Assembly: GCF_900095135.1 (NCBI RefSeq)
Contig: NZ_LT605205.1
Span: 3,348,001 to 3,412,000, forward strand
DNA from: Proteiniphilum saccharofermentans
Lineage (GTDB): Bacteria > Bacteroidota > Bacteroidia > Bacteroidales > Dysgonomonadaceae
Reading direction: 5' to 3'
Length of the DNA stretch: 64,000 nucleotides
Both the position numbers and the translations under genes were made by a program. Positions 27,167 to 61,057 of this stretch are shown here, one piece after another (positions within the stretch are counted from its first letter, which is position 1; the number at the start of each line of letters is the position of its first letter). The notes below the pieces were generated by a model. It was not told the DNA's origin and ran no database searches. It worked only from the letters and a program-made list of their open reading frames with translations.

Positions 27167-27171
27167 ACCAG

Positions 27172-28185: not shown

Positions 28186-28286
28186 ATTTATTTTTCACAT
28201 TATCATTACTCGTCGGGATCATTCAATCGACTTACATACTCGTTTCACACGATTATTTTAATCATGTCGGTTCCATCTTATATTGT

Positions 28287-29219: not shown

Positions 29220-29310
29220 ATCTTCCAATAGGCATAATATTGATTACGGAATAAGATAACAGACAACCAGACATCTAATATATCTTATTCGATATAAACT
29301 ATAATAACAA

Positions 29311-42525: not shown

Positions 42526-45798
<3,273 letters not shown>

Positions 45799-45874: not shown

Positions 45875-48800
45875 TTATTGTACAGTCAGAGAATTCAATC
45901 TCAAACCGTTCATATTTTCCGACGACAATTCTACTTTATAACGCCCGGCATTGATATAACCACCGGTACTTGTATTCAATGTACGCCATTTCTCATTTTC
46001 CATCGGGAAAGTGATCAAATCATCTTTCAATACCGTTCCATCTTCAACGATCAGTCTGAATCGCACCTCTTTGGGCGCGCCACTTGTATTCATATAGGAA
46101 AATCTGAAGGCGTAGATATTGGCTACACCGGTAAAAACATCCCATGTAATAGCGCCTTGCCTGTCACCTGTAAAACCGATTGACGTCCTGTTTCTCACCT
46201 CACTCTTTTCTGTGGTTCCGTCGATATCCGCTTCTTCTGCCGGATACAGGGTCGCTGTTCTGCCGTCATCTCCTTCCGGCAATGTTTCTACAGGGGTTTT
46301 GGCAATTCTGTCGATATTATTCCATGACCATCCTGCAGCGGGGGATACTTTTGCAGGCTCAATACCGGGATATTCGGAAGCAATGGCTATTGCTGAGATT
46401 ACCGCCTGCCCTGCTTTTACTTCCGGAAAGGAGATTTTCAGTTCACCTCCCACTATTTCAGCATCGATCACCTGTTTATATGCCGTGTCATGTCCTGCTT
46501 CTGCCCATATATCCAAATCGTCTATATAGACGGAGTCGTTGAGTGCAACATCAAATATCCGGTATCCTTCACAATCATTGTTTCCACCAGTGCCATACCA
46601 GGGTTCTGCAAAATAGAGCTCCACCCTGTATTTTCCGTCGGGAAGAGGAAAATGGTATGCCAGTTTGTGACGGCCATACCGAAACTGTCCGAACAGTTTC
46701 CAATCCCTGATACCTTTTATCGGATCTGTGGTATAACGTTGGCTTCCCTGGTAAGGATTCACATCTTCAAAATCATCCGCCCAGGAGACCGAACCCCAGC
46801 TTCCATTATCCTTCCTTGCAATATCGGCACTCCACTCCTGTCCGAATTCATCCACATAGGCATCTCCACCGCAATTGACACGATAAATATAATGATAACC
46901 CTCTTCCGCCTTTAATATCGGCCGGGCATCCTGATAAAGCTTCTCAAAATTAGGGGATTGTTCCAGATTATCCAATACGAGACAGTCTTTTGCTACCGGC
47001 TTGCCATCCACGTAGCCAACGGCATAAAGCACATTGTACTTGATATCCGCATTATTCCAAACGAAGTGTGTACCTTTGGCGCCTCTTTTTTGCCGCCCCA
47101 GTGATTCCGAGTGGATATCATTAAAAAGTTCCACTTCATCGCAGTTTGAAAAGACACGTATACCATCCTTTTTTCCGGGCGAACTCCATCTATCGGCCCA
47201 GGTATGGGATACGATATAAACCATAGGATCTGCTTTTGGCGGGGCATAGTTCGAGCGGTACATATAATATACATCCAACGGCTCTCCCCATGATGTGAGC
47301 AAACCCTTATAGTTTACCGGCCCTATCTTGTCGATGACACGGTATCCCTCATCGGGATGTCTTCTTCCGGGATTGTCATGCGAATTGAATATCCATTGAA
47401 ATTGTCCGATGACGCTGTCTCTCACGGTTTCTGCCAACCGCACCTTCTGCTCCATCAACAGGGACATTCTGTCTTCACTCCAGGGGCCATCCTGTTCGAA
47501 ATCACCTTCGGCATGAAAATCGAGAGAGCGCCAGGCGCCATATTCCCCGTTCAACAACTGTATTTTCAACTCATTGGCATAATTATCCGGATCGCCTCCA
47601 TAGGTACCCGACCAGTTCTGTACAACGTTCCAGTCGGTCCCCTGACCACCGTTACAGGTTGTAATGACCCGCTGGACGGTTGCCGTAGGATCCATATCCC
47701 GGATAATGGCGACGCATTCCTCGGCAAATTCTTTAGGAAGCACGCTCTCATTTTGTAATCCCCACATGATCACCGACGGTGAATTTCGCCGCTCTTTTAC
47801 CCATTGACGAAGCAGTTGTTTGAAGTTTTCCCGGAATTCCGGCGTATCATACCAGATGTGGGCAGAAAACTGCGGCCAGAAAAGAATACCGTTCTTATCC
47901 CAGGCCTCCTTATACAACAGGTTATGAGGCTGATGGGCATCCCTGAACGCATTGAACCCGGCATCCTGTATCTGTCTGACCCTTGCCTGTATCTCTTCTT
48001 TCGAAAAAGCATGCGACTGTCCGAACCGGTGTTCGTATTCAGCCGTACCGTTCAGGAAGAAGGATTGACCGTTCAGATGAAAAGTGGGATCACCGTCATT
48101 TCGTATAACCGGCCAACTGACTGTTCGTATTCCGTAAGGGGTGGTCACTTCATCTGTGGTGGCCCCGTTTCTCTTCAATACCGATGCAAGCCGATAAAGG
48201 TATGGATCTTCCACAGACCACAGGCGGGCATCTTTTATTTCAGGACTGACCTGTTTGATAACCCTGGTTTCACCCGGTTGCAGCATAATCGTGTCGGATA
48301 AGCGGAATACAGCAATGCCGTTATCGTCGTTCAATCTGGTGACCAGTTCGAATGTTTCTTCGTTATCACTATAATTTTTTATCTCTGTCTCGATATGTAA
48401 CAACCGGGTATCGTTATTCCAGATATGTACACCAAACGGCTCTATTCTGACTTTATCGACTACCTCCAACACCACAGGACGAAATATCCCCATCGGTTGC
48501 GATCCTTCGGAGAAACCCCATTCGGAAGAACATCCTCCGCATACCCAGGGCATATTGGTGATAAACGACGGATGTTCGGCTTTCACCGTAAGGATATTAT
48601 TCTCCCCTTTATTGACAGCATCCGTCACATCCAGCGTAAAAGTAGTTCTTCCCCCCGGATGGCGGCCAAGATCTTTTCCGTTTAAAGAGACCGTAGCATA
48701 GGTGCCAACCCCTTCAAAACGGATAAAAAACCGTTTATCGGTATCATATTCCGGCAAAAAGAACTCTTTCATATACCATGCATTTCCATGCCTGTTTCCA

Positions 48801-50104
48801 TGAAGATATTGGCGATAACCATGATAATCATCCCAATTGTGAGGGATATCCACTTTTATCCAGTTACTATCCACGGTAAAAGCATCGTACTGACCACTGT
48901 TTTCTTCCGCAGCAATGGTATACCAATCCTTATCAAGTGCTATAATCCCTCTTTTCCCTTTCTGCTCCGGTTCGGGGAATCTCAACTTTGACCGCCCCAC
49001 CGGCCTGGAGACCGCAACCGCGATCCCCCGCTGGTCATGCTCATTGACGGCACAATAAAAATGATACACAACGCCGTCATGCTTGATCAGGTAAGATTTA
49101 TGAGCGAACAGGTTGTCATAGTCTTTCGAGGGTACAATCAGATCATCACCATTCCAATCGGTCCAGTTTACCAGATCATAGGAACAGGAAAAAGTATTGA
49201 ATGCTTTGTATTTCCGGTCCGCACGAAATGCTCCAAAATAAAACATCACGTACAGGTCGCCCATCTTTTGAATGTGTGCGTCACCGGTGATCCCCTCTTC
49301 ATGAGAAAAGACGGGATTATTCTCATAGCGTTCCCAGTTGACCATATCATCGGAATAGGCAATACCTATTCTCTCGGCCTTCACATTGTTTTCCGGATTG
49401 ATCCCGCCGGCGTTATAGAACATAACAAACGGCTTACCGAATTTCCCGGTTTTATCCCAAAACACGCTGCTTTTATATTGGATGATATTTTCGAACCATT
49501 GCGCCTCTTTGTCGTTCGGCGACATCCCGGGTCGATCGAAACCCTGCCATTCATGGGCTACGGAAGGATCCTTGTCCGTGTAGGCAACCCCTATCTTCAA
49601 CGGGCCTGTCTCGTACCCCCTTTCGGCTCCCCCGATATAAGTCATCCAATACTTATTATCGAAGGTATTCAATTCGTAGCTGCCGCCCCAGGTATGATCT
49701 TCCAATGCAGGATAGCCGCCACGCTGATTCTCATCCCACTTTCCATCACGAAAAGAGAGTATCCGTCCCAATGTTTTCCACTGTAACAAATCGTCACTTT
49801 CAGCCAGCCATGTCTCATATCCCCGTCCATCTTTGCCGGATTGACCATCATAGCGAAGATAGGTCATATACCATTTATCACCCTTGCGGAAGACGGTGGG
49901 GCAATCCATTTTCTCGTTATTTGTTCCGGGAGCGATCACCAGTCCGTATTTATAGGGTGTTTTTACCTCCTCATATACTTTCTCCATCTTTGATTGCGGA
50001 ACAACCGTTTGGGAAAGGAGATGTATACAATTGAGAGAGGTCAGTAAAAAGAGAATTATACTTGGATACAATCTTTTTTTATTTATATTCTTCATTTTGC
50101 TCAT
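45875..50104 (-). CDS. multi-module secreted glycosidase: beta-propeller, GH2, malectin
   Basis: A 1409-residue exported protein. The start is the ATG at 50104 or 50095 (a TTG at 50107 is less likely); the signal peptide ends near residue 32. Residues about 45-395 form a five-bladed-propeller-like glycosidase domain (MDCPTVFRKGDKWYMTYLRYDG, ETWLAESDDLLQWKTLG, GDAHIQKMGDLYVMFYFGA). A complete GH2 unit follows (about 400-960) with acid/base Glu786 (WGLQNESVLP) and nucleophile Glu854 (LLNGEYGAW). Next are a DUF4982-like Ig domain, a malectin/CBM57 domain (about 1085-1255, YRVNCGGDAYVDEFGQEW) and a C-terminal beta-sandwich. The layout recalls BT0996 of B. thetaiotaomicron, a GH137-GH2 enzyme of RG-II breakdown, as I remember it; GH43-like remains possible for the propeller. 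Confidence 0.8.
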   Translation of the reverse strand: MSKMKNINKKRLYPSIILFLLTSLNCIHLLSQTVVPQSKMEKVYEEVKTPYKYGLVIAPGTNNEKMDCPTVFRKGDKWYMTYLRYDGQSGKDGRGYETWLAESDDLLQWKTLGRILSFRDGKWDENQRGGYPALEDHTWGGSYELNTFDNKYWMTYIGGAERGYETGPLKIGVAYTDKDPSVAHEWQGFDRPGMSPNDKEAQWFENIIQYKSSVFWDKTGKFGKPFVMFYNAGGINPENNVKAERIGIAYSDDMVNWERYENNPVFSHEEGITGDAHIQKMGDLYVMFYFGAFRADRKYKAFNTFSCSYDLVNWTDWNGDDLIVPSKDYDNLFAHKSYLIKHDGVVYHFYCAVNEHDQRGIAVAVSRPVGRSKLRFPEPEQKGKRGIIALDKDWYTIAAEENSGQYDAFTVDSNWIKVDIPHNWDDYHGYRQYLHGNRHGNAWYMKEFFLPEYDTDKRFFIRFEGVGTYATVSLNGKDLGRHPGGRTTFTLDVTDAVNKGENNILTVKAEHPSFITNMPWVCGGCSSEWGFSEGSQPMGIFRPVVLEVVDKVRIEPFGVHIWNNDTRLLHIETEIKNYSDNEETFELVTRLNDDNGIAVFRLSDTIMLQPGETRVIKQVSPEIKDARLWSVEDPYLYRLASVLKRNGATTDEVTTPYGIRTVSWPVIRNDGDPTFHLNGQSFFLNGTAEYEHRFGQSHAFSKEEIQARVRQIQDAGFNAFRDAHQPHNLLYKEAWDKNGILFWPQFSAHIWYDTPEFRENFKQLLRQWVKERRNSPSVIMWGLQNESVLPKEFAEECVAIIRDMDPTATVQRVITTCNGGQGTDWNVVQNWSGTYGGDPDNYANELKIQLLNGEYGAWRSLDFHAEGDFEQDGPWSEDRMSLLMEQKVRLAETVRDSVIGQFQWIFNSHDNPGRRHPDEGYRVIDKIGPVNYKGLLTSWGEPLDVYYMYRSNYAPPKADPMVYIVSHTWADRWSSPGKKDGIRVFSNCDEVELFNDIHSESLGRQKRGAKGTHFVWNNADIKYNVLYAVGYVDGKPVAKDCLVLDNLEQSPNFEKLYQDARPILKAEEGYHYIYRVNCGGDAYVDEFGQEWSADIARKDNGSWGSVSWADDFEDVNPYQGSQRYTTDPIKGIRDWKLFGQFRYGRHKLAYHFPLPDGKYRVELYFAEPWYGTGGNNDCEGYRIFDVALNDSVYIDDLDIWAEAGHDTAYKQVIDAEIVGGELKISFPEVKAGQAVISAIAIASEYPGIEPAKVSPAAGWSWNNIDRIAKTPVETLPEGDDGRTATLYPAEEADIDGTTEKSEVRNRTSIGFTGDRQGAITWDVFTGVANIYAFRFSYMNTSGAPKEVRFRLIVEDGTVLKDDLITFPMENEKWRTLNTSTGGYINAGRYKVELSSENMNGLRLNSLTVQ

Positions 50105-50798
50105 CAATTATTTTTCTATATGTGCAGGTACTGTTATTACATATCTTACAACCATATGCACGTTTCCTCAGGTTGCGTCCAATACCTATAATCCCACTCA
50201 CTGATTTTGCCGGAATCATAAGAGAGGAGTCCGTGAGAGTCACACCTACCGGATTTCTGCCAATAAGTGAAAACAATTTTTTCTGCTCCTGCAGCTCCCA
50301 GTTACAGTAGCCCGGACTGTATCTGTTGCTGATATGCATGCCCCTTTGCCGCATTTCATCGGAAAGCACCTGTTGAACATGATCCATCGCCTTTTCCACT
50401 GTCAACGAACCGATTGCATCAAGAAGGTATGCCTCCATGATATTCCCCTGTTGACTCTGCTCATTGATCATATCCGTGAAAACCGGCCCTGCACTACAGA
50501 CAAAAAGAGCCATGGAAGAAGCTTCTTTGAGATAACCTGAAATCTGGCGGCCTATTTGTAATTCAGTTTGGTCGATCTGTACACTACCCTGTTTCACGGA
50601 AACAGGGCTGTTTTTTTTTATCAGATAACCTCCTGAAATTCCTTCTATATATTTCAATTTTTCCCTTATCTGGTGGACGAAAATCTTTGCAGGGTGTTCA
50701 TCTTCTATATCGGTTGATTGAATAAAACGGAAGATTTCGCCCGAAGCAGGTCCGACTTCCCGAAACGCAAACTGAAAATATTGAAATGTATCCGACAT
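50079..50798 (-). CDS. MetH-activation-domain protein, candidate corrinoid reactivation factor
   Basis: A 239-residue cytoplasmic protein matching the C-terminal (SAM-binding, reactivation) domain of cobalamin-dependent methionine synthase, without the rest of MetH. The core RYSPGYCNW (159-167) and VGVTLTDSSLMIPAKSVSGIIGIG (184-207) are conserved. A C-terminal CKICNNSTC cluster (Cys217, Cys220, Cys225) may bind an iron-sulfur centre or metal. Such stand-alone proteins occur with corrinoid methyltransferases and probably return cob(II)alamin to an active state. It follows the zinc methyltransferase by 12 bases that contain AAGGAGGTGA, an unusually strong ribosome binding site for Bacteroidota. 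Its 3' end overlaps the start of the multi-module glycosidase. Confidence 0.85.
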   Translation of the reverse strand: MSDTFQYFQFAFREVGPASGEIFRFIQSTDIEDEHPAKIFVHQIREKLKYIEGISGGYLIKKNSPVSVKQGSVQIDQTELQIGRQISGYLKEASSMALFVCSAGPVFTDMINEQSQQGNIMEAYLLDAIGSLTVEKAMDHVQQVLSDEMRQRGMHISNRYSPGYCNWELQEQKKLFSLIGRNPVGVTLTDSSLMIPAKSVSGIIGIGRNLRKRAYGCKICNNSTCTYRKIIDEQNEEYK

Positions 50799-50810
50799 CT
50801 GTCACCTCCT
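50799..50810 (-). promoter_or_regulatory. strong Shine-Dalgarno site of the activation-protein gene
   Basis: The intergenic minus strand reads GAAGGAGGTGACAG immediately before the ATG, nearly full complementarity to the 16S 3' end. Other genes of this locus that I inspected (for example 51809 and 45798) lack such a site. Confidence 0.7.
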
Positions 50811-51809
50811 TCAGATAGAGCGATTAAACTCTTCTACAGCCTCCAAAAAAGCGCGAATATTTTCCAGCGGGGTTTGTGGAGGGAGATCGCATCCGCTGGA
50901 TATCACAAAGTTAGGATAATTTTTTGTACGATTTAATAGTTCCAAGGTCGACTGTTTTACTTGATCGGGATTGGACTGTTTGAACAAACTTACAGGATCA
51001 AGGTTTCCCATCACGATCAAGTGGGGAGGGCACTCACTCAGTGCTTCCGTTATATCTATCGCGTTGCCGAAATGCAAAGCATTGGCACCACTCTCTATCA
51101 TTGCCTGGGTACATTGGCCGCTATTGCCGCAATTGTGGAGGATGACCGTAAAATTATCATCTTGCACCTCCTGTACAATTTGCTTCACAAAATCGGACGA
51201 ATAGAGACGGCAATCCTCATCCGACAATAGTCCTGCAGCGGGTTCAGCCATAATAACACCGGCAGTTCCCGTACTTTTCATCGCTTTGCAGTAGTCCACC
51301 AAAAAGGCACTACATTTCGAGAGCAGCAAGAGAATTGTCTCCGGCTCGGTATAGATTGAAACCATTATTTCTGACATGTCGTACAACCTGCCGGCTAAAG
51401 AAAAGGGGCCGATACATCCTGAAAAGAGCGTTCTCTCCTTGATATTACTGACACACAATTGATTTGCCAGCAGATAAGCAGGCAGACGCCCCTGATCCAA
51501 AGCCGGCACTTGCAGTTGCTCCACGTCGGACATCTCCTTCAATAATCTTCCCACCACGCGCGGTGTTTCATCCTCAGGCATATTCACCATTGCACCAAAT
51601 GCTTCGGCCTCCACTGTCAGATCCATCATGGAGCTACAGGTCGACAGATGGAATGTTTCAGACGCCGCTCTGATAGCTTCATACTGCACCCTTCCATCAG
51701 AGACCGCACTTTTTACCGTGGCACCCATCAGTTCAATTCCGGGATGGGTGATCAATGGAAAGGCCTGTCGCCTCTTATGGTTTAACACGCTGTCTATCCA
51801 CTCTTTCAT
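50811..51809 (-). CDS. URO-D-fold zinc methyltransferase, MtaA/MtbA-like
   Basis: Cytoplasmic corrinoid-dependent methyltransferase of the uroporphyrinogen-decarboxylase superfamily, 332 residues. The zinc-binding triad of methylcobamide:CoM methyltransferases is present: His225 and Cys227 in VILHNCGNSGQC and Cys307 in ISSGCDLPPQTP. The C-to-C spacing of 80 is close to that of MtbA. Other family landmarks are FPLITHPGIELMGATV, CSSMMDLTVEAEAFGA, FSGCIGPFSLAGRLYDM and MGNLDPVSLF. True URO-D enzymes lack this triad. It lies 11 bases after the corrinoid-protein gene and 12 before the activation gene. Zinc-bound thiolate chemistry suggests that a thiol is the methyl acceptor, but which thiol is unknown because coenzyme M is not expected here. 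Confidence 0.88.
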   Translation of the reverse strand: MKEWIDSVLNHKRRQAFPLITHPGIELMGATVKSAVSDGRVQYEAIRAASETFHLSTCSSMMDLTVEAEAFGAMVNMPEDETPRVVGRLLKEMSDVEQLQVPALDQGRLPAYLLANQLCVSNIKERTLFSGCIGPFSLAGRLYDMSEIMVSIYTEPETILLLLSKCSAFLVDYCKAMKSTGTAGVIMAEPAAGLLSDEDCRLYSSDFVKQIVQEVQDDNFTVILHNCGNSGQCTQAMIESGANALHFGNAIDITEALSECPPHLIVMGNLDPVSLFKQSNPDQVKQSTLELLNRTKNYPNFVISSGCDLPPQTPLENIRAFLEAVEEFNRSI

Positions 51810-51820
51810 TACTTTGTCAA

Positions 51821-52504
51821 TTAGTTATTCATTTTTTGGGATTGTAAGTCTAACCATATAATGCCTTCTCTGGGATTTTTTCCATATGCATCGGCACCGA
51901 TAGAGGCAGCAAAAGCAGCAGTGAGTGGTGCGCCTCCTACAATCACTTTGGTAGCGGGTGAAGCCTGCTTAATGGCTTTGATCACCGGTTCAATGTTCAC
52001 CATTGTGGTGGTAAGTAGTGCCGAGATACCCACCACTGCATCGGGATATTCTTTTACTTTTTCCACGAATGCCTCTGTGTTCACATCTATCCCCAAGTCA
52101 ATCACCTCCCATCCGGCTCCTTCCACCATCATACTCAATAGATTTTTACCGATATCATGTAAATCTCCAAAAACGGTGCCCACAATAAAAACTCCTTTCC
52201 GTTTGACAAAGCCGTCAGCAAAGTAAGGCTTCAGATGGTTCATGGAGGCATTCATTGCTTTTGCCGATAGCAACATTTGTGGTACGAAGATTTTTTTCTC
52301 CGTAAACTTTTCTCCTACTTTGTTCATGGCAGCAATCAGCGCCCGGTTTAATATTTCATCGGGATTTACTCCTGCTACCAATGCTTCTTGGGTGATCTCA
52401 TCGGCACCGGGTAGTCCCTCCATTTGCGGAGGATAAGGCGAGTTGATATTAATTTTCCCGAACTCCACACACTCAAATAATTTATTAATCAATTCCAACT
52501 TCAT
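51821..52504 (-). CDS. methyltransferase corrinoid protein
   Basis: Methyl-carrying B12 protein of 227 residues. An N-terminal four-helix cap (about 1-92, EALVAGVNPDEILNRALIAAMNKVGEKFTEKKIFVPQMLLSAKAMN) precedes a Rossmann B12 domain. That domain has the DxHxxG motif VFGDLHDIGKNL; His116 is the lower axial ligand, followed by GWEVIDLGIDV, VGISALLTTTM and GGAPLTAAFAASIGADAYGKN. It belongs with MtbC/MtaC/MtvC-like proteins that shuttle a methyl group between a substrate-specific and a second methyltransferase. It heads the tight three-gene unit corrinoid protein, zinc methyltransferase, activation protein. The 186-base gap upstream contains a fragment of the locus repeat but no cobalamin riboswitch that I can see. 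Confidence 0.95.
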   Translation of the reverse strand: MKLELINKLFECVEFGKININSPYPPQMEGLPGADEITQEALVAGVNPDEILNRALIAAMNKVGEKFTEKKIFVPQMLLSAKAMNASMNHLKPYFADGFVKRKGVFIVGTVFGDLHDIGKNLLSMMVEGAGWEVIDLGIDVNTEAFVEKVKEYPDAVVGISALLTTTMVNIEPVIKAIKQASPATKVIVGGAPLTAAFAASIGADAYGKNPREGIIWLDLQSQKMNN

Positions 52505-52625
52505 ACTTTTTTATTATTGATTGAGTCGCCTTTAAAAAGTATATTTTTTCAATTTTGCCCCATCCAGAAGTATCTGTAGGGCGTTATTTTTACTTAAATT
52601 CGACTTATTCAAGTGGACTCTTGAT

Positions 52626-52664
52626 TCAACTTTTGCAAGTCGTATGATTACAACTAAAGCATTC
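52626..52664 (-). repeat. locus repeat family, flank fragment D
   Basis: TTCAACTTTTGCAAGTCGTATGATT-ACAACTAAAGCATTC closely matches the reverse complement of 35945-35983 at the right edge of copy A. Only the arm end and flank are present. It is the main content of the gap between the symporter and corrinoid-protein genes. Confidence 0.6.
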
Positions 52665-52690
52665 AAGAACCAAGAAAGGCATTGACCTTC

Positions 52691-54244
52691 CTAATTGAAT
52701 ATGATATAGACCATGACCATGACAAGAATTAATACCAGCCAGACAATTTTTACAGATCTGTCTACTTTCACGGGGCGATAATCCAATAACCGGGCAGTAT
52801 CGTCGCTTTTATCGAACAGAGAATAGAGAAAGAGAAACAGACATAGAATGACAAAAATCAATGCGGAAACGTAGAGATAGTGAATCCCCTGAAAAACCAC
52901 ATTGCCGTAATAGAGCAGTCCCGTCCCCAAACTACACAGTGTTCCTGCAGAGAGTACCCAATTCACGGCATTTCGAGATGTTTTTTTCCACAGTACAGCG
53001 GACAAAAAGGCAGCTGCCATGGGCGGAGCCAGAAATCCAAGCACCGACTGAAAAATATTGAAAAAGCTCAACCCCCGGATAGAGGAGATACCGATAGCGA
53101 GAAAAACGGATAATATTGCTCCTGTCAATACCACAATCCGTCCGATCTTCTTGATCTCTTTCTGTTCGATATCGGGTTTATACCTCTTTATAATATCCAT
53201 TGTAAATACCGTACTCAATGAATTGAGCGCCGATCCTATTGTACTTATCAGTGCAGCAAGCATTACCACCACTACCAGGCCTGTCAGTCCGATCGGAAGC
53301 ACGGCCTGGACCAGGGAGAGATAGGCATCGGTGGAGTTTGACAGATCCGGAAGAAGGATAAACGCCAGAATTCCCGGGAGGATGAAAAGAGGTATATCGA
53401 TCAGTTTCAACCATGCAACGAAATTGGCACCTTTTTGTCCCTCCTTAAGATTTTTCGCACCCAGTACCGATTGAACCATCGATTGGTCAGTGCACCAGAA
53501 CCATATACCCATGACGGGATAGCCTAACAGAATGGCCAGCCATGGAAAGTCTTTGTCTTCTAACGGCTGGAACAGTTTCCAGTATGTAGGCGGTGTGGCC
53601 TCTATCACACTTCCTATACCTCCAATTTTGTGCAAGGCCAATACCACTAAGAGGAATGAGACACCAATCAGCAGGAGCATCTGAAACACATTGGTATAGG
53701 CAATTGTCTTCAGTCCTCCGGTAATCACAAAAAGGGCGGAAACCAACACCAGTAGAACGATACATAACCAGAGTGGCAGATCCAGTATCTGGGCCATGAA
53801 TATACCTCCGGAGAAAAGTGTCAGTCCCAGCCATGAAATAAGCGTTGTAACGACTGTATACCACGCAATGTATCGCCGCGATGTATCGCCAAAACGTTTA
53901 CCCATATATTCCGGGAGGGTGGTCACTTCTGCTCCCAGGTAGCGGGGTGCGAAGACAAAAGCCAACAGAAAAATAAAAAGAAAAGCGTACCATGAAAAAT
54001 TACCGGCAACAATACCGCTCTCGTATCCGCTGCTGGCATTGGCAATTAACATCGAAGGACCCACGTTGGTACCCCACATGGTTAAACCAATTGCCAGCCA
54101 CCCCAGGGATTTATTGGCAAGGAAAAGGTTGTCACTTCTGTTTTTTTTACTGAAGCCGGACCAATAGGCTATGATTCCAAGGAGAATAAAATAGGCTATG
54201 ATCACAGCAATATCTACTGAAGATAATTGTATCAGGGCGTCCAT
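52691..54244 (-). CDS. sodium/solute symporter (SSS family)
   Basis: Inner-membrane importer of 517 residues with about 13 hydrophobic segments and the SSS/SLC5 pattern: VDIAVIIAYFILLGIIAYWSGF, FLANKSLGWLAIGLTMWGTNVGPSMLIANASSGYESGIV, ITGGLKTIAYTNVFQMLLLIGVSF, GIWFWCTDQSMVQSVLGAKNLKEGQKG and MLAALISTIGSALNSLSTVFTMDI. These features place it near the SglT-type sugar transporters. It lies between the URO-D-like gene (23 bases upstream) and the corrinoid gene, so the imported compound is probably what the module processes: a methylated sugar or small glycoside (inference). Confidence 0.93.
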   Translation of the reverse strand: MDALIQLSSVDIAVIIAYFILLGIIAYWSGFSKKNRSDNLFLANKSLGWLAIGLTMWGTNVGPSMLIANASSGYESGIVAGNFSWYAFLFIFLLAFVFAPRYLGAEVTTLPEYMGKRFGDTSRRYIAWYTVVTTLISWLGLTLFSGGIFMAQILDLPLWLCIVLLVLVSALFVITGGLKTIAYTNVFQMLLLIGVSFLLVVLALHKIGGIGSVIEATPPTYWKLFQPLEDKDFPWLAILLGYPVMGIWFWCTDQSMVQSVLGAKNLKEGQKGANFVAWLKLIDIPLFILPGILAFILLPDLSNSTDAYLSLVQAVLPIGLTGLVVVVMLAALISTIGSALNSLSTVFTMDIIKRYKPDIEQKEIKKIGRIVVLTGAILSVFLAIGISSIRGLSFFNIFQSVLGFLAPPMAAAFLSAVLWKKTSRNAVNWVLSAGTLCSLGTGLLYYGNVVFQGIHYLYVSALIFVILCLFLFLYSLFDKSDDTARLLDYRPVKVDRSVKIVWLVLILVMVMVYIIFN

Positions 54245-54267
54245 GCGGTATTATCTGTTTTTATTGT

Positions 54268-55332
54268 TTATCTGTACTTATCGACAATTGTCAATGCTTT
54301 CTCAATCTCTCTTTCAGATTTAAAATCCACATTAATATGCAATCCCTGATTGCCCACATGATCAATCAGCGGCTCCAGTTCATCCAATGTCACCCAGTTT
54401 ATCATAACAGATTTTCCGGCAGCAAGGACACGCTTATACAAATCGTACCACCGGGAATTTCCCCCTTGTGGTTGCCCGTAACCCGGTGCCCATTGTACCC
54501 CGTTCAGCTCTTTCAACTCCAATACGGCATCCAGATGGCGGATGGCATCTACCCCATCGAGATGATAGAGTGTATAATCAATTTGCCTGGTCTGCTCCTC
54601 CAGGAAAGGGAGACAAAAGTGTCTAAAATCCTCTTCTGAAATCATGATGGAGAGGTCGACCTGTAGTTTAGATACTTTCCCCGGTGCCCAAAGCGAAAAG
54701 TAGCAGAAAGCCATCTCACCCTCCATATTGATGATATCATAGATGCGGTCGAAGACATCAAAATAAACTTTGTTTATTTCCGCCAACTGCTCCAAAGTCC
54801 TCTCAGGCTCAAGGATGAGGTCTACCAGCACGTTGTCGGGTCCTTTCAGACTGGCCAGCACATCCAATCCCTCTATCAGGTCAGGACAGCCCACCATATA
54901 TTTTCCTTCCGATCTTTTTTTCACAGCACTCAGCAAATCCCGGTGTAATTTCCACCACCGGTTATCTTCATCAAACTGAATTGTTTCATCGAAATCCTTT
55001 TTTGGGTGAATCCAGATTGTATCGTCACGCCCTTCTAATTCCGAACCCAGCAAGGAAGCCAAAGATCCCGGTCCCAGTTGTGTGTTTGCTACAGGAAGGA
55101 TATCTGCCATATAGGAGTTCCGCGACATTCTGTAATGCAGATAATCTGACCGCCACTCCGGATCGAACCAAAACTGGTTGATATCTTTATGGCGCGGAGG
55201 GGGTGGAATCTCTTCATAAGGTTCACCTTCTTTGAAGAGATGCTCCCACATCGATAAGACGATACCTTTCCCCTTCCACCAATCCAGGTAATGTTTTTTG
55301 GTCTCGTCAAAGTTTGATTTCCATGTCATCAT
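54268..55332 (-). CDS. URO-D-superfamily protein without the zinc triad, candidate substrate methyltransferase
   Basis: A 354-residue cytoplasmic protein of the uroporphyrinogen-decarboxylase-like superfamily, in the subgroup often labelled trimethylamine corrinoid protein 2 despite having no corrinoid domain. Family text includes WWKGKGIVLSMWEHL, LGPGSLASLLGSELEGRDDTIW, RWWKLHRDLLSAVKKRSEGKYMVGCPDLIEGLDVLASLKG, SEEDFRHFCLPFLEEQ and YTLYHLDGVDAIRHLDAVLELKELNGVQWAPGYGQPQGG. At the H-x-C position of zinc methyltransferases it has His257-Leu-Asp259, and there is no Cys after Cys240. It cannot form the same zinc site. Its place between GH31 and the symporter and close to the corrinoid gene makes it the best candidate for the methoxy-substrate enzyme. 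Confidence 0.75.
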   Translation of the reverse strand: MMTWKSNFDETKKHYLDWWKGKGIVLSMWEHLFKEGEPYEEIPPPPRHKDINQFWFDPEWRSDYLHYRMSRNSYMADILPVANTQLGPGSLASLLGSELEGRDDTIWIHPKKDFDETIQFDEDNRWWKLHRDLLSAVKKRSEGKYMVGCPDLIEGLDVLASLKGPDNVLVDLILEPERTLEQLAEINKVYFDVFDRIYDIINMEGEMAFCYFSLWAPGKVSKLQVDLSIMISEEDFRHFCLPFLEEQTRQIDYTLYHLDGVDAIRHLDAVLELKELNGVQWAPGYGQPQGGNSRWYDLYKRVLAAGKSVMINWVTLDELEPLIDHVGNQGLHINVDFKSEREIEKALTIVDKYR

Positions 55333-55349
55333 AAGCAGTTTGCAATAAT

Positions 55350-57566
55350 TCAGGCGAAAACGACTTCAATCACTTTACTCAAATCCATCTCGTCCGTACA
55401 GGAGACCTCTTCCGGATAGAGTGGAATGATAGCTCCTTTTTTCACAAATACAGGTATCGTATCCAGTGGGACATCGCTATTTCTCAACCATTGGTTGCCT
55501 TTAAAACACTCTTTTGTGAAAAAATGGATCCACTCTCCTTCAGGCAGGTAGATATCTCTTTTGTTGTCAGAATTCATTACCGGTGCTACCATCATATTTT
55601 CCCCAAAATAATACTGGTCATCAATATGGCGGCAGGTTTTGTCGTCAGGATGATGCAGTATGAGTGCACGCAGCATCGGCATTCCGGTCCGGATTGTGAT
55701 CATGCTTTGTTGTATAATATAGGGAATTAGCTGGTAACGAAGCCTCCATAATTTTCTTATATTCTCCTTAATTGCGGGATAGTGCCATGGCTCACGTTTA
55801 CAGGTGCCGTGGTAGCGGAAGTGAGAGGTAAAAACGCCGAACTGTGTCCATCGGATATAGAGATCATCCGGAATAACAGAATTCATAAAATCAGGTACAC
55901 CATGAAATCCGGGAACATCGTGACTCCAAAAGCCAAAGCCGGAAAGTCCCAGTTGCAGCCCTCCTCTCAGTGAGGCGGCCATTCCGTCCCATGAAGCAGC
56001 GGCATCACCTCCCCAGTGGAGGGGATAGCGCTGGCATCCGCTCCACCCGGCCCTTGCCCAGATGATTCCTTCACCTGTAACCTCTTTTGTCACTTCATAG
56101 GCCGCTTTCTGATACAACAGCGGGTAGAGATTATGCAGCTTTTCAGCTGTCATACCGTGATAAACAGCATCCAGATGAATATCTTCTCCAAAATCGGTCT
56201 TGATACAAACAACCCCCATCTTCAATAATTTCCTAAGCAGCTCCTTATACCATTCTGAGGCCTTCCTACAGGTGAAATCGATGGTGCCGGCATAATCCTC
56301 CATACTGAAATTGGAAGCTCCGGAGATATTCTTATTGCTTTTGCTGATATAGTTATTTGCAGCGGCTTCTTCATATTGTTTGGCCTGATGTGAGATATAG
56401 GGCAATTGCCACAAGCTTACCCTGAATCCTTTCTTTTTCAGCTTGTCGATAAACTTTTCGGGGTCGGGGAAACGCTCCTCGTTGAATTTCCACTCACAAA
56501 GCCAGTCAGTCTTAAACCACCCGGTATCTAAGTGGATCACATCACAGGGATAATCTTCTTCACGCAGCCTGTCGCAGACCTCATTCACCTCATCAGCGGA
56601 AAAATAGGACATACGGCTCATCCAAATGCCAAAACTCCATAGAGGGGGCAGCGACGGGAATCCGGTCAGTTGGCGATAGCCGCGTAGGATCTCTTCCGGA
56701 TGGTCCCCTCCGATCAGGAAGAGATCAATAAGCGGTTCATCTGTCAGAATTTGTACAGAACGTGTAGAATGGTCGGCCAGTGAAAACTTCGCAAATGATG
56801 TAGTGTGCAAAAAGAGTCCATAATCTTCGGAAGAGAGATAAAAAGGAATATTTTTGTATGTACGACGATTATTGACTCCCTGTCCGTCCTGATTACGCAG
56901 TTGAAAGGTCTTCCCGGCAAGGTCTATTTTTGTAAAGCGTTCACCTGTACCGTAAAAGCACTCATCCGGTTTTGCCTTGATTGAACAGGTAGCTCTGTCG
57001 GGCTTTCCGTTATGCTCTACATAGGCCAGGGCAAATGCATCATGCCGTGCCGGGGAAAACATGTCGTATGCAGAAAGCGAAATTTCCTTTTCACCATCAG
57101 GAAAAAAACTGATCTGTATCGTATCTTCAGGTGGAGGAATAAGATCACTCCAATGGTCTATCATTGGTTTTGCAAAGCTGACAGCCGCCTTTTTATTTCC
57201 GGCGGTATCTTTTACGATCCATTTATCTTCTAATTGCAGGTAAGACAAGGAGGTATCAGTTTTCAGCTCAGCGGCAAAGGAAAGCATTTCGGAATCTTCA
57301 CTGATTTCATCACCCAGAGAGAGTGAGAGCCTCAAAATTTTATTCCCGTATTTCCTGATACGTAATATATGCTCTTTTTTCCTGTACGTTGTATCGGGCT
57401 TTATTTCGTTAGAGTTGTGTTGTTGTTGAAAAGGGATGGAGATATAGATATCCCCTTCCCTCTCTACAATCCGTGTAGGTGTACATGCACGCCACAGTCG
57501 GTCGCCTTCGTCCAACAACGGACTAAAATCTAAAAAATCAAAAAGCTGATAATTAGTCTGTCTCAT
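55350..57566 (-). CDS. cytoplasmic GH31 alpha-xylosidase-like glycosidase
   Basis: A 738-residue GH31 enzyme closely resembling YicI-type alpha-xylosidases. The nucleophile is Asp458 in CIKTDFGED and the acid/base Asp521 in HWGGDAAASW, followed by SLRGGLQLGLSGFGFWSHDVPGF. Earlier landmarks are ERFTKIDLAGKTFQLRNQDGQG, SLPPLWSFGIWMSRMSYFSADEVNEVCDRLREEDYPCDVIHLDTGWF, and a C-terminal beta domain from about 640. There is no signal peptide, so it works in the cytoplasm, unlike most glycosidases of this locus. It starts directly after the mutarotase-like stop and precedes the URO-D-like gene by 17 bases. An imported xyloside, possibly 2-O-methylxyloside, would be a fitting substrate (inference). 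Confidence 0.93.
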   Translation of the reverse strand: MRQTNYQLFDFLDFSPLLDEGDRLWRACTPTRIVEREGDIYISIPFQQQHNSNEIKPDTTYRKKEHILRIRKYGNKILRLSLSLGDEISEDSEMLSFAAELKTDTSLSYLQLEDKWIVKDTAGNKKAAVSFAKPMIDHWSDLIPPPEDTIQISFFPDGEKEISLSAYDMFSPARHDAFALAYVEHNGKPDRATCSIKAKPDECFYGTGERFTKIDLAGKTFQLRNQDGQGVNNRRTYKNIPFYLSSEDYGLFLHTTSFAKFSLADHSTRSVQILTDEPLIDLFLIGGDHPEEILRGYRQLTGFPSLPPLWSFGIWMSRMSYFSADEVNEVCDRLREEDYPCDVIHLDTGWFKTDWLCEWKFNEERFPDPEKFIDKLKKKGFRVSLWQLPYISHQAKQYEEAAANNYISKSNKNISGASNFSMEDYAGTIDFTCRKASEWYKELLRKLLKMGVVCIKTDFGEDIHLDAVYHGMTAEKLHNLYPLLYQKAAYEVTKEVTGEGIIWARAGWSGCQRYPLHWGGDAAASWDGMAASLRGGLQLGLSGFGFWSHDVPGFHGVPDFMNSVIPDDLYIRWTQFGVFTSHFRYHGTCKREPWHYPAIKENIRKLWRLRYQLIPYIIQQSMITIRTGMPMLRALILHHPDDKTCRHIDDQYYFGENMMVAPVMNSDNKRDIYLPEGEWIHFFTKECFKGNQWLRNSDVPLDTIPVFVKKGAIIPLYPEEVSCTDEMDLSKVIEVVFA

Positions 57567-58262
57567 CTATTTCCCGCTTTTTACCTGCTTTAATTCAATC
57601 CATACAACACCTTCCGGAGCATTCTCAATTCCTTCCTGATACCCCGCCATGATACTGTTCCATTCATCCACCCGCGGATTATTTTCTGTCGTCTTAGGAT
57701 TCAGCTCGTCCAGGTTTTCGCCTGCAGGAATGCTGATCACCAACATCAGTTGTCGGCCGTCACGAAAGAGCAGCACCTGTTGAAAAAGGGCATTGCAAAA
57801 GCCGTTCGACACCTCCGGCCATTCTTCGAATTGCAGACGGTGATACTCCATATATTCGTCCTGCAATTGGGTATCTGCAATCAGGTTAGCGGTCATAATA
57901 GTATGAGACCACTGCGCCGCACTTTTTTTGTTGCAGTTTTTCTCGCGGCCAAAGTGATAGAACGGTTTTGCAAAGACCTTTATTTCCAACCCCTTAAAAC
58001 GATCTTCAAGTCCGGATTTCACCTCATCCAATCTGTTCTCATCCAGATACAATACCCAACGATTCTCCCAGTTGTATAATGAATTCTTATCGATCCGACA
58101 CTCTTCGGCATATCGGATCATCTCTTCTTTCGAAATCACAGACCGTCCATCCACAATTTCAATAATGGAAGGAGAAAAAGAACGGTCGTTGGATGTACAT
58201 GAAACAAGAACGACAGTAACAAGAAAAACAGCGATCGTTTTTATCGGACTACTGAAGGTCAT
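57567..58262 (-). CDS. lipoprotein with L-rhamnose mutarotase (RhaM/DUF718) domain
   Basis: A 231-residue protein with a lipoprotein signal (hydrophobic segment then VVLVSCTSN; lipobox Cys at about 22). The C-terminal half (about 125-228) has the dimeric alpha/beta RhaM pattern: LQDEYMEYHRLQFEEWPEV, the WPEV motif, VLLFRDGRQLMLVISIP, and NNPRVDEWNSIMAGYQEGIENAPEGVVWIELKQV. The first half (about 60-110, NRWVLYLDENRLDEVKSGLEDRF) may be a degenerate second copy. RhaM interconverts alpha and beta rhamnopyranose and is normally cytosolic, so export is odd. It fits an extracytoplasmic rhamnose release step near GH78 (inference). Its stop is adjacent to the GH31 start. Confidence 0.72.
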   Translation of the reverse strand: MTFSSPIKTIAVFLVTVVLVSCTSNDRSFSPSIIEIVDGRSVISKEEMIRYAEECRIDKNSLYNWENRWVLYLDENRLDEVKSGLEDRFKGLEIKVFAKPFYHFGREKNCNKKSAAQWSHTIMTANLIADTQLQDEYMEYHRLQFEEWPEVSNGFCNALFQQVLLFRDGRQLMLVISIPAGENLDELNPKTTENNPRVDEWNSIMAGYQEGIENAPEGVVWIELKQVKSGK

Positions 58263-58275
58263 ACCTTTTTTTATT

Positions 58276-61008
58276 TTAATAAAACAACCAATCTACGGTT
58301 TCGCTTCCATCCTCATCCGTCAATCCGGCGTTTCTCGGGGGCACATCAGATCCCGTGAAACCCAATACCAGTAACATACCTTTTCCAAGAGTCAACGTAT
58401 GTTTACCCGGCGAAAAGGAGTAGGTATGAATATTTACAGCCGGTTGATCCGACAGTTGAATCGCGTTGAGAAGCACCGGATCAGCCTGTCCGTATAAATT
58501 GGCGGATGCATCGGTCTCCAATGTGGGTGCTTTCGCATATCTGTTCTGATCGTTTCTGAAGTAACCCACCAGTAGTTTTACCGGTCCTGCCGTTTCAAAT
58601 TCGAGGGTGGTTCCGTTCTCCCTCTGTTCACCAGCGTTCAAACTCAACATCTTCATATTTTGCAATTCCGGGGCAATCTTCTCAATTACCGTATTACTCC
58701 CCGATATAGCTCTTTGTCCCTCAGACACAGGTATCCATTGGGATTTTGGATTTAACAAGGTCACCTCAGCAGGGACGAGCGCCGGAATTGCGATATCGCT
58801 ACCCATTGAATGATCGGATTTCAACAATGCCAGATTCTCCATAAAATTTTTCAATTCCTGCTCATAATGGGGTAACAACTCCTCCCATGTCTTGTTTTTT
58901 CCGTCATCTCCACCGATAGGAATACGTCTCTGGGCCGTCTGCATGCTATTCGCGTAGTGGTAGGTATCTTTAGTCAACTCCACCAGCCTCCTGTAGTGAT
59001 TCAGGCTCTCCTCCATCAAAGGGATCGCCTTTTCAAGATCATTGATATCCTTGCTGTACTGGTAATCCAGTACATGCTCGGCAGCCCTCACTTTGGTATT
59101 GAAAAACCAGGCAAATTCCCGGTAGCAATATACATCGTTTTTCAACCGTAAAAATTCGTCCCTGTTTTTTGTCACTTTACTTTCCGCCTTATCAATAGCA
59201 GCCACTGCCTTGTCGCCGTGTTCAACGGCCTGCGCAACGATATCGAGCGGTAATTCACCGGTATGAGGAATATTTTTCCACTTTTTATCAACAAATTCTA
59301 TCAGTTTCTCCCCTTCGGGGCCACACGACTCGTAGAAACCGGGATAAATTGTATATTTATAAGGATTGACCAACTGGCTCATAAACATTCCCAGCAGAAG
59401 AGTTTGTCTGTTACCTTCCGTGATGCCAAAACGGCGCAAAAGCTTCGGAGATATTTCTCCGGTTTGTTCATATGCTTCCAAGATAGAGGCAGCCTCACTT
59501 CCACAACCGTACAGATCGTCCAACCGGTCACTCCAGTAACCGATCTCCTGTTCCCGCGGCCGGTCGGCTTTCCACGCGTAACGTCCCCATGCTTTATACC
59601 AGATCCAGTCCCGGTCTATCTGCCGAAGGCGTTCTCCATCCGCCAGTTTATCGGCGGTGTAGGGCCAGTCCCAGTAAGAAGCCTGCGGGTATAGGTGCAA
59701 TGCGTTTGCACCATGCACCTGATGCATTGCCTGTACCGATTTCCGGATAAAATCGGGGGAGCCGTACCGGAAAGGTTCCAGATTGGCGAGGATATGTACA
59801 TTATCGATATGTACCGACCCGAGAGCACTGAGTTCCTGATGGATTTCCGACCAGGGGCCTCTCGGCTCATAGGTTGTCAGTGATTCACCGTTATACTTGT
59901 GCATGGTGTACAGGTTTTTATATATCGGTAGCGCCTTATCCATCACCATCCCGGCATCGGTATCGTGTGCACGCAGAATAATCGGCGGTTCATCGGTACG
60001 CCCCAATGCATCCAACCCGTCCTTTACTCCCGGTATCACAGTTTCGGTAAACCATACTACATCGTCCTCAAGGGTAGCCATCGCCTCACCCAGGCAGACC
60101 AGCAGTCCCACATTGGGATATTTTTCCACGAATGCAGCGATGGACTTCCGGGTATAATCGGCGATATAAGGGATGATCGGCCTGTTCCTGTCCTGTGTTT
60201 TTATACCGTAATGTTCCGCAAAAGGTTTGGATACGATTATATTATAAAACATCTGTATCACATAGATCCCTCTTTTATCAGCCTCTTCTGTCAGAAAAGA
60301 GAAAATCTCTTCATTTTTCCTGAAAGTCTCCTCGTCCACCTCTAATGCAAAAGGATAGTCATCCAGTTTCACAAGTGAAGCGAACGGATGCCCGTTCCAC
60401 AGATAGAGAGAATTCATCCTGTTCTCCACCAGCATATCCAGATAATCTATCCATAACTCTTTATCGTAGAACCAGGGAAATGTCTCCGGTGTATAAGGAT
60501 ATTCATACACGGTTCTTTCCGGCAGGTAATAAGGTTTCTGCAGGCCGACACAGGCCCCGCGTAAAACCATTTCAGGAGCGTCCACCAACTCAGCGGGGAG
60601 AGGTTGCTTCTCATTGAACAGGTCAGATAGTGTATAACATCCATACAGTGCGCCGGATGGGTCCTCTCCATAGACCAGTGTCCGATTATTCTCAGTAGCG
60701 ATATAATACCCCTCATTGTCCATTTCTTCGGGGAGTGAAAAACCCAGTCCATCGATAACACCCGAAGCAAGCGGATCTTCTTTCTCCAGTATCCAGATAA
60801 TTCTTTCATTATTCCCTGAAAGGTCTGTCGATCCGCCTTCCCTGATAACCACTTTATATTTAAGTTCCGCCAGGCTGTTCTTCAGATGTTCAGCTCCGAA
60901 TAACAGTCTTTCCGATGCGGAAGGAGATGTAAGGATAGTCACAGACTCTTTTTTACAGGACACAATTAAAATGAGTGCCGAAAGAATAAATAGTGTTCTT
61001 ATCTTCAT
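58276..61008 (-). CDS. large lipoprotein glycosidase of unassigned family (GH67/GH115/GH20-like start)
   Basis: A 910-residue lipoprotein (ATG at 61008; signal ILIVSCKKES). Residues about 22-140 resemble the N-terminal domain of GH67/GH115 glucuronidases and GH20 hexosaminidases (SASERLLFGAEHLKNSLAEL, GYYIATENNRTLVYGEDPSGALYGCYTLSDLF). A TIM barrel follows (about 145-480: MVLRGACVGLQKPYYLP, WIDYLDMLVENRMNSLYLWNGHPFASLV, LLVCLGEAMATLEDD, IILRAHDTDAGM, NVHILANLEPFRYGS). Next is an all-alpha region rich in charged helices (about 480-740) and a C-terminal beta-sandwich (about 770-890). Candidate acidic residues are in CLGEAM and HDTD. I could not assign a CAZy family or substrate. It sits between GH78 and the mutarotase-like gene. 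Confidence 0.7.
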   Translation of the reverse strand: MKIRTLFILSALILIVSCKKESVTILTSPSASERLLFGAEHLKNSLAELKYKVVIREGGSTDLSGNNERIIWILEKEDPLASGVIDGLGFSLPEEMDNEGYYIATENNRTLVYGEDPSGALYGCYTLSDLFNEKQPLPAELVDAPEMVLRGACVGLQKPYYLPERTVYEYPYTPETFPWFYDKELWIDYLDMLVENRMNSLYLWNGHPFASLVKLDDYPFALEVDEETFRKNEEIFSFLTEEADKRGIYVIQMFYNIIVSKPFAEHYGIKTQDRNRPIIPYIADYTRKSIAAFVEKYPNVGLLVCLGEAMATLEDDVVWFTETVIPGVKDGLDALGRTDEPPIILRAHDTDAGMVMDKALPIYKNLYTMHKYNGESLTTYEPRGPWSEIHQELSALGSVHIDNVHILANLEPFRYGSPDFIRKSVQAMHQVHGANALHLYPQASYWDWPYTADKLADGERLRQIDRDWIWYKAWGRYAWKADRPREQEIGYWSDRLDDLYGCGSEAASILEAYEQTGEISPKLLRRFGITEGNRQTLLLGMFMSQLVNPYKYTIYPGFYESCGPEGEKLIEFVDKKWKNIPHTGELPLDIVAQAVEHGDKAVAAIDKAESKVTKNRDEFLRLKNDVYCYREFAWFFNTKVRAAEHVLDYQYSKDINDLEKAIPLMEESLNHYRRLVELTKDTYHYANSMQTAQRRIPIGGDDGKNKTWEELLPHYEQELKNFMENLALLKSDHSMGSDIAIPALVPAEVTLLNPKSQWIPVSEGQRAISGSNTVIEKIAPELQNMKMLSLNAGEQRENGTTLEFETAGPVKLLVGYFRNDQNRYAKAPTLETDASANLYGQADPVLLNAIQLSDQPAVNIHTYSFSPGKHTLTLGKGMLLVLGFTGSDVPPRNAGLTDEDGSETVDWLFY

Positions 61009-61057
61009 TTTTAATTCCAATTTGTATTATCGAGACGATGAAGGAACTTTTCTGTAC

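Follow-up and report, generated by a model that had tools for sequence, protein, structure and literature searches.

A candidate corrinoid-dependent O-demethylase module for a methylated side-chain sugar in a rhamnogalacturonan-II locus of Proteiniphilum saccharofermentans

A stretch of 64,000 nucleotides from the Proteiniphilum saccharofermentans genome (contig NZ_LT605205.1, positions 3,348,001 to 3,412,000; hereafter, the window) carries six minus-strand genes that probably make up a corrinoid-dependent O-demethylase for a methylated sugar from side chain A of rhamnogalacturonan-II (RG-II), most likely 2-O-methyl-D-xylose-α-1,3-L-fucose (2-O-Me-Xyl-α1,3-Fuc). We put the probability of this reading at roughly 0.65. 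A sequence-only reading of the same DNA had proposed that the module imports an O-methylated sugar or glycoside, cleaves it in the cytoplasm, and removes the methyl group through cobalamin. Sequence and gene context support that proposal, given the glycoside hydrolase (GH) family 31 neighbours, the fusion of the candidate substrate enzyme to corrinoid domains, and the lack of a match to methylamine, betaine, or methanol enzyme families. To it, we add a polymer (RG-II), a likely substrate (the methylxylose–fucose disaccharide), and, in part of the family, a probable methyl acceptor (homocysteine), each proposed from sequence.

The six genes are open frames in the frame list of the window, all on the minus strand. 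The first in the direction of reading is GH31 (55350–57566), an α-xylosidase-like glycoside hydrolase without an evident signal peptide (Pfam GH31, 2.1e-90). It is followed by UROL (54268–55332), a candidate substrate methyltransferase (methyltransferase I) of 354 amino acids without a Pfam or NCBIfam model, whose relatives include corrinoid fusions; UROL is our name for what had been called a second URO-D-like protein. Next come an SSS-family sodium/solute symporter (52691–54244; Pfam SSF, 1.8e-51; TIGR00813, 246 bits against a cut-off of 184), the candidate sugar importer, and the corrinoid protein CORR (51821–52504; Pfam B12-binding, 4.3e-26, and B12-binding_2, 8.6e-18), whose His116 sits in DLHDIG, a DxHxxG motif. 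The last two are MTII (50811–51809; Pfam URO-D, 4e-55), a URO-D-family methyltransferase and candidate acceptor-side enzyme, and ACT (50079–50798), a stand-alone MetH-type activation protein matched by Pfam Met_synt_B12 in its C-terminal part only (1.1e-8). Frames, Pfam, and a residue check bore out the six-gene set, the families of ACT, MTII, CORR, SSS, and GH31, and the named residues. The short gaps first described hold at 11–23 bases between module genes, except between SSS and CORR, which lie 186 bases apart. A simple hydropathy check found no hydrophobic N-terminus in ACT, MTII, CORR, UROL, or GH31, in line with the absence of signal peptides claimed earlier, whereas the next three genes upstream of GH31 do show one.

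Several of these proteins can be placed more closely. The best NCBIfam model for GH31 is the α-xylosidase PRK10658 (509 bits, short of the 606-bit cut-off), and the closest solved chain is 5f7c (1134.7 bits), which we take to be BT_0339 of Bacteroides thetaiotaomicron (B. theta); D458 in KTDFGE and D521 in HWGGD are presumably the catalytic aspartate pair. In MTII, H225-x-C227 and C307 form a candidate zinc site and are invariant across 16 aligned MTII sequences. The sole solved-structure match of ACT is 1j6r, named as a methionine synthase and, we assume, TM0269 of Thermotoga maritima. The activator in the module is hence of the MetH type and differs from the ATP-dependent one that serves O-demethylase systems, which was not sought elsewhere in the genome.

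Domain fusions provide the strongest sequence evidence for the proposed chemistry. A scan of a genome collection gave 88 UROL relatives, the best 80 of which were kept as a locus set, each with the flanks contained in the stretch fetched; fusions were counted by BLAST to the window's CORR and to the homocysteine domain of locus L048, and six examples were analyzed with Pfam. UROL shares one protein with a corrinoid domain in 49 of the 80 loci, joined to it directly in five and separated from it by a homocysteine S-methyltransferase domain in 44. A UROL–homocysteine domain fusion is seen in two more loci ending at contig ends, and in the remaining 29 UROL is either a separate protein or truncated at a contig end. 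Pfam confirmed all six fusion examples, four of them with PF02574. Because UROL is fused to the cobalt-carrying domain, it probably exchanges a methyl group with that domain, and because a PF02574 domain occurs in the same protein, homocysteine is the likely methyl acceptor in the fused branch. The three-domain protein (UROL, homocysteine domain, and B12 domain) is found at L048:9977-12907 and in 43 other loci, and it resembles MetH with UROL replacing the folate domain. The P. saccharofermentans genome, a single contig of 4,414,963 bases, has two PF02607 matches, namely CORR and a frame of 1236 amino acids with a B12-binding domain, which is taken to be full-length MetH.

The polymer is suggested by the genes around the module. 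The window's gene string is by its content an RG-II utilisation locus, because relatives of three solved enzymes, BPa0997, 5mqm, and BT_1002, representing GH138, GH106, and GH141, lie within it. The second gene upstream of GH31 (58276–61020, minus strand) matches NCBIfam NF049878 at 1521 bits (cut-off 1300) and the solved BPa0997 at 1261 bits, and we take it to be a GH138 α-D-galacturonidase, a marker of RG-II use. An RG-II-type rhamnosidase (35994–39422, minus strand) is assigned to GH106 by Pfam and matches 5mqm, presumably BT0986, at 1382 bits. Directly past the window end, a MocA-type gene is followed by a GH141, which among solved structures matches BT_1002 best (925 bits). Relatives of GH138, GH106, and GH141 from the B. 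theta RG-II system are, in other words, also present in the module's locus, and BT1002 is named an α-L-fucosidase and used on RG-II chain A (PMC7939467; this and the other papers are cited from excerpts of their text). According to the same source, B. theta cleaves 21 of the 22 RG-II linkages, the exception being 2-O-Me-Xyl-α1,3-Fuc, at which the published pathway ends; its excerpts make no mention of a B12 module.

The arrangement of the module is conserved. Within the family Dysgonomonadaceae, UROL is found in 10 of 101 genomes, counting that of P. saccharofermentans, and the order rhaM-like gene, GH31, UROL, SSS, CORR, MTII, ACT is kept in all nine other loci, which argues against a chance assembly; CORR is whole in eight of the nine and split into two frames in L014. 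Among named records, the closest UROL is that of Proteiniphilum sp. X52 (L023), at 99% identity. Judged by their titles, the 80 relatives belong to Bacteroides, Phocaeicola, Prevotella, Dysgonomonas, Draconibacterium, Muribaculaceae, Alistipes, and other Bacteroidota, apart from three of Anaerolineae. A search of viral contigs gave no UROL relative. UROL is rare in phylum and class samples, where 296 genomes gave two weak matches beyond the genome of origin, and a UROL profile found it in 2 of 395 genomes, the genome of origin and one of its own family. Where CORR is missing from the neighbourhood, it can be encoded elsewhere: all 15 of the UROL genomes searched (of 80) have such a corrinoid domain, either within a fusion or on its own.

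Gene neighbours in the 80 loci include GH31 (58 loci), SSS (47), MTII (39), ACT (36), BT_1002-like GH141 (32), and GH138 (10). GH31 lies at most 300 bases from UROL in 47 of its 58 loci, and the GH141 lies within 300 bases of GH31 in 22 of its 32; three of the 58, all Anaerolineae, hold only a different GH31 (23–26% identical). In the 41 well-flanked loci, where sequence extends 9 kb or more upstream and 7.7 kb or more downstream, the counts are GH31 32, CORR (fused or separate) 36, ACT 30, SSS 28, MTII 27, GH141 21, and GH138 9. The sequence-only reading would have been refuted by clusters occurring mainly without glycan genes; GH31 is instead present in 58 of 80 loci and 32 of 41 well-flanked ones. 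Bacteroides loci L148, L149, L152, and L155 run in the order GH141, GH31, UROL–CORR fusion, SSS, with ACT and MTII beside them, and the Prolixibacteraceae locus L064 places GH138, GH2-type enzymes, GH31, UROL, SSS, further GH2-type enzymes, and GH106 in one row. The Anaerolineae locus L074 has sugar ABC transporter genes where others have SSS, and with UROL it holds a different GH31 (26% identical) and, nearby, an α-L-fucosidase gene.

The association also holds across whole genomes. In a Bacteroides sample (70 genomes from the genus to which B. salyersiae belongs), UROL and GH31 (E ≤ 1e-150) are each present in 10 genomes, and these are identical. GH138 occurs in 19 of the 70, comprising 10/10 genomes with UROL and 9/60 without, and MTII in 14, comprising 10/10 with UROL (one of these copies, in G815, has an internal stop) and 4/60 others. 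In a Prevotella sample (299 genomes from the genus to which Prevotella pectinovora belongs), UROL is found in 80 genomes, GH138 in 96, and both in 77. GH138 is thus present in 77 of 80 UROL genomes, all except G963, G1005, and G1041, versus 19 of 219 others (Fisher P = 6e-49, a value that ignores shared ancestry, completeness, and genome size). This co-occurrence indicates RG-II but no single sugar, and the same chemistry might act instead on 2-O-methyl-fucose of chain B or on a rarer methylated α-xyloside or α-glucoside of RG-II or pectin. Such a substrate would suit the glucosidases among the relatives of GH31, and a figure legend on spent media of a BT1017 deletion strain labels MeFuc as well as MeXyl-Fuc (PMC7939467). 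We nonetheless regard another sugar as rather unlikely: the xylose–fucose pair fits because an α-xylosidase-like GH31 and a BT_1002-like GH141 adjoin UROL, and 2-O-methyl-fucose is released by GH139 (PMC12282258), a family not sought in these loci.

What kind of protein UROL is must be judged indirectly. No Pfam or NCBIfam model matched it, and PDB searches with the sequence and with a profile gave nothing credible. An AlphaFold2 model built from 39 diverse rows reached a mean pLDDT of 95.2 and a pTM of 0.92 (nine close rows gave a pLDDT of 56), and in it strands and helices are predicted to alternate as in a TIM barrel. The invariant polar residues across 39 sequences are H31, D77, N83, D151, E154, C210, H257, D259, Q280, and W281, mostly placed by the model at or near strand ends; E30 is kept in 38 of 39. 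In our reading, the YHLDG stretch of UROL would occupy the place of LHNCG in URO-D proteins. L003 and L004, two distant relatives in other genomes (partial alignments at 24 and 22% identity), match PF01208 at 1.5e-16 and 3.1e-17. Both also adjoin a GH31, with CORR, ACT, and MTII relatives nearby, and one such locus also holds a stand-alone homocysteine methyltransferase. The label ‘URO-D-like’ is, in sum, only indirectly supported. The E-X14-E-X20-H zinc pattern, which occurs in some O-demethylases, was absent from the window's UROL in a motif check.

The family scores of the other proteins could be taken to indicate a methylotrophy-type module that uses methanol, methylamines, or glycine betaine and lies in a glycan locus without serving it. 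The best NCBIfam models for CORR are MtgC, pyl_corrinoid, and MtbC, and those for MTII are methylcobalamin:coenzyme M methyltransferases, every one below its cut-off. Along the same lines, BT_0340, BT_0342, and BT_0343 of B. theta are listed as Mta, methylamine/trimethylamine corrinoid methyltransferase proteins (PMC8941943), and the methyl esters of RG-II (PMC7939467) are a source of methanol close by. This explanation appears improbable and is not favoured, since no substrate-enzyme family match was found: the scanned module genes gave no MtaB-, MtmB-, MtbB-, or MttB-type match, UROL as a single sequence did not match these families, and they were not among the NCBIfam families listed for 39 aligned UROL sequences. 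Moreover, a dedicated GH31, which shares its 10 genomes (of 70 in the Bacteroides sample) with UROL, would have no role in one-carbon use.

The division of labour between UROL and MTII can be judged from related loci with other substrate enzymes. In the Bacteroides sample, MTII occurs in four genomes that lack UROL (loci L170, L171, L172, and L173). At L170:8095-11453, L171:9765-13525, and L173:7681-11321, MTII is accompanied by ACT, CORR, and a different gene at the position expected for the substrate enzyme, which is URO-D by Pfam in L170 and L171, with the L173 copy looking like that of L171; L172 ends after MTII and part of CORR. The glycosidase neighbours are GH127 in L170 and GH3 in L171. 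Because MTII, ACT, and CORR recur with other URO-D proteins in loci without UROL, these three look like a common kit in which a URO-D-type protein would set the substrate. Two loci from two other Bacteroidota families, L168 (whole) and L169 (3113-12689), contain a GH31 39–41% identical over part of its length, several URO-D proteins, and CORR, ACT, and MTII relatives, to which L169 adds a stand-alone homocysteine S-methyltransferase and a GH38 α-mannosidase; this module type possibly serves another methylated sugar. One could argue that the roles are reversed, with MTII, a clear URO-D methyltransferase with zinc-site residues, demethylating the sugar, and UROL, whose fold assignment is indirect, being an acceptor-side or sugar-modifying enzyme. 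We find this quite improbable. Relatives of the kit genes recur with other URO-D proteins (L168–L171), whereas UROL is paired with a GH31 of its own and thus acts like the component that confers specificity; furthermore, PF02574 would serve homocysteine in the fused forms.

With UROL as the demethylase, we infer the following route. A secreted BT_1002-like GH141 and other RG-II enzymes would free the disaccharide, and the SSS symporter would take up 2-O-Me-Xyl-α1,3-Fuc. In the cytoplasm, UROL would hand the 2-O-methyl group over to the cob(I)alamin carried by CORR, and the GH31 α-xylosidase would cut the xyloside either before or, preferably, after demethylation. The latter order is preferred because, by glycosidase chemistry, an ordinary α-xylosidase should be impeded by a 2-O-methyl group so close to the anomeric carbon; a need to remove it first would explain why the disaccharide is left intact by RG-II enzyme sets that have no B12 module. 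From CORR, the methyl group would pass directly to homocysteine in the fused UROL–homocysteine–CORR proteins, or, in the version found in the window, via MTII to homocysteine or tetrahydrofolate. ACT would aid the re-reduction of oxidised CORR with S-adenosylmethionine, as in methionine synthase.

A number of observations weigh against a UROL-centred O-demethylase acting on this disaccharide. UROL lacks a His-Cys-Cys zinc site, with Cys210 as its only conserved cysteine, and for that reason the difficulty lies in how an alkoxide leaving group would be activated. A profile comparison by hhalign between UROL (39 rows) and MTII (16 rows) was not significant (probability 1%). MTII persists nearby in 22 loci that also have homocysteine and corrinoid domains, which places the MTII acceptor in doubt. 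Finally, nine of the 41 well-flanked loci (L046, L051, L056, L058, L062, L067, L069, L071, and L100, all with a long fused UROL) have no GH31 within reach, and GH31 lies more than 300 bases from UROL in 11 of the 58 loci that have it. The last two counts would be expected of a hitch-hiking cassette with no common pathway; that explanation is very hard to reconcile with the identical presence of UROL and GH31 in 10 of 70 genomes, the same order in nine of nine family loci, and the pairing of UROL with a different GH31 in Anaerolineae, and we give it almost no weight.

The evidence from B. theta also counts against the proposal. This species very probably owns the module, because the labels given for BT_0338, BT_0339, BT_0340, BT_0342, and BT_0343 fit the gene order of L148, and the L148 GH31 is close to 5f7c: the GH31 sequence L137, from this full-set locus, is 97.6% identical to 5f7c over 205 residues. 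BT_0338 is a GH141 (PMC8264420), BT0339 is an α-xylosidase (PMC10434189), and the Mta-labelled proteins follow. Wild-type B. theta on RG-II oligosaccharide accumulates the 2-O-Me-Xyl-Fuc disaccharide (PMC7939467), and a B12 probe caught four of five known B12-binding proteins or complexes and did not catch the Mta set (PMC8941943). If the whole module is present in B. theta, the accumulation would require a lack of induction, a limiting methyl acceptor or B12, or a different substrate. In co-culture, BT_0338, BT_0984, and BT_1002 were among four fucosidase genes changed more than 2.8-fold (PMC8264420), which hints at shared control.

The rest of the locus is rich in glycan genes; those described next, from the lipoprotein-like gene to the trio, are on the minus strand. 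Directly upstream of GH31 is a lipoprotein-like protein with an L-rhamnose mutarotase domain (57567–58262; Pfam PF05336), the rhaM-like gene found in nine of nine same-family loci and 13 of the 80 UROL loci. Beyond GH138 lie an α-L-rhamnosidase-like protein (61058–63262; PF21209 and PF17389) and a Gfo/Idh/MocA oxidoreductase by Pfam (63278–63997) that runs beyond the window end. On the other side are three GH2-type enzymes (39374–42244, 42526–45798, and 45875–50107), the third of which carries malectin and DUF4982 domains. This malectin-containing GH2, the next gene downstream of ACT, begins within it (TTG start as listed), the two sharing 29 bases (50079–50107), so that a common transcript for the module and the RG-II enzymes is possible. 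A trio of amidohydrolase, zinc dehydrogenase, and aldo/keto reductase (26243–29228; L-fuconolactonase model, 19 bits against a cut-off of 400) is a weak lead to possible fucose oxidation, and a similar trio is located beside UROL in 6 of the 80 loci. DUF6298 and DUF5703 proteins (18650–21763 and 32021–34324) belong to the same glycan locus. No riboswitch match at the Rfam gathering score was obtained in window positions 20000–64000 or in seven related loci.

Known systems share parts of this design. The marine P450 6-O-methyl-galactose demethylase likewise removes a sugar methyl ether; it is oxidative, oxygen-dependent, and works without cobalamin. MtaA/MtbA and CmuA have the HxC...C residues of MTII, which scores 133.2 bits against TIGR01463 (the MtaA/CmuA family), under the curated cut-off of 235.4, and to our knowledge coenzyme M is unlikely as a methyl acceptor in Bacteroidota. 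Substrate enzymes of the MtvB, OdmB, VdmB, MtoB, and CdmB type have been placed in the UroD superfamily (PMC13222342). The UroD-superfamily O-demethylases and the CdmBCA chloromethane system are similar in combining a substrate methyltransferase, a corrinoid protein, a second methyltransferase, and an activator. Their substrates, however, are methoxylated aromatics or haloalkanes, whereas the context here is a pectin sugar, UROL has no family model, the activator is MetH-like, and MTII is of the URO-D type. MetH, also in the split version whose activation protein is separate (T. maritima TM0268/TM0269; work cited in PMC7857596), has in common with the module and its fused relatives a homocysteine domain, a corrinoid domain, and an activation protein; the differences are that the fused form has UROL where MetH has its folate domain, and that the P. 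saccharofermentans genome keeps its separate 1236-residue frame. No description of corrinoid-dependent sugar demethylation was found among the titles and abstract openings listed in a literature search, with subscription papers and preprints outside its coverage. Within that scope, the chemistry is of a known kind, and the substrate class, the protein family, and the domain fusion were not found described.

If the proposal is true, the module offers a gene set for the missing RG-II step at 2-O-Me-Xyl-α1,3-Fuc and a fate for its methyl group, as well as a testable function for a B. theta B12-binding gene set now labelled methylamine methyltransferase (PMC8941943). It would link vitamin B12 supply to dietary pectin use and points to a methionine synthase that draws its methyl groups from plant sugars in place of methyl-folate. 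On balance, we lean slightly towards a broader picture, in which the relatives of CORR, ACT, and MTII that accompany other URO-D proteins in other glycan loci would represent a general modular route for methylated glycans, gut and rumen Bacteroidota would demethylate plant cell-wall sugars with B12, UROL would found a new class of sugar O-demethylases, and, in many Prevotella-related loci, the UROL–homocysteine–B12 protein would make methionine from pectin methyl groups.

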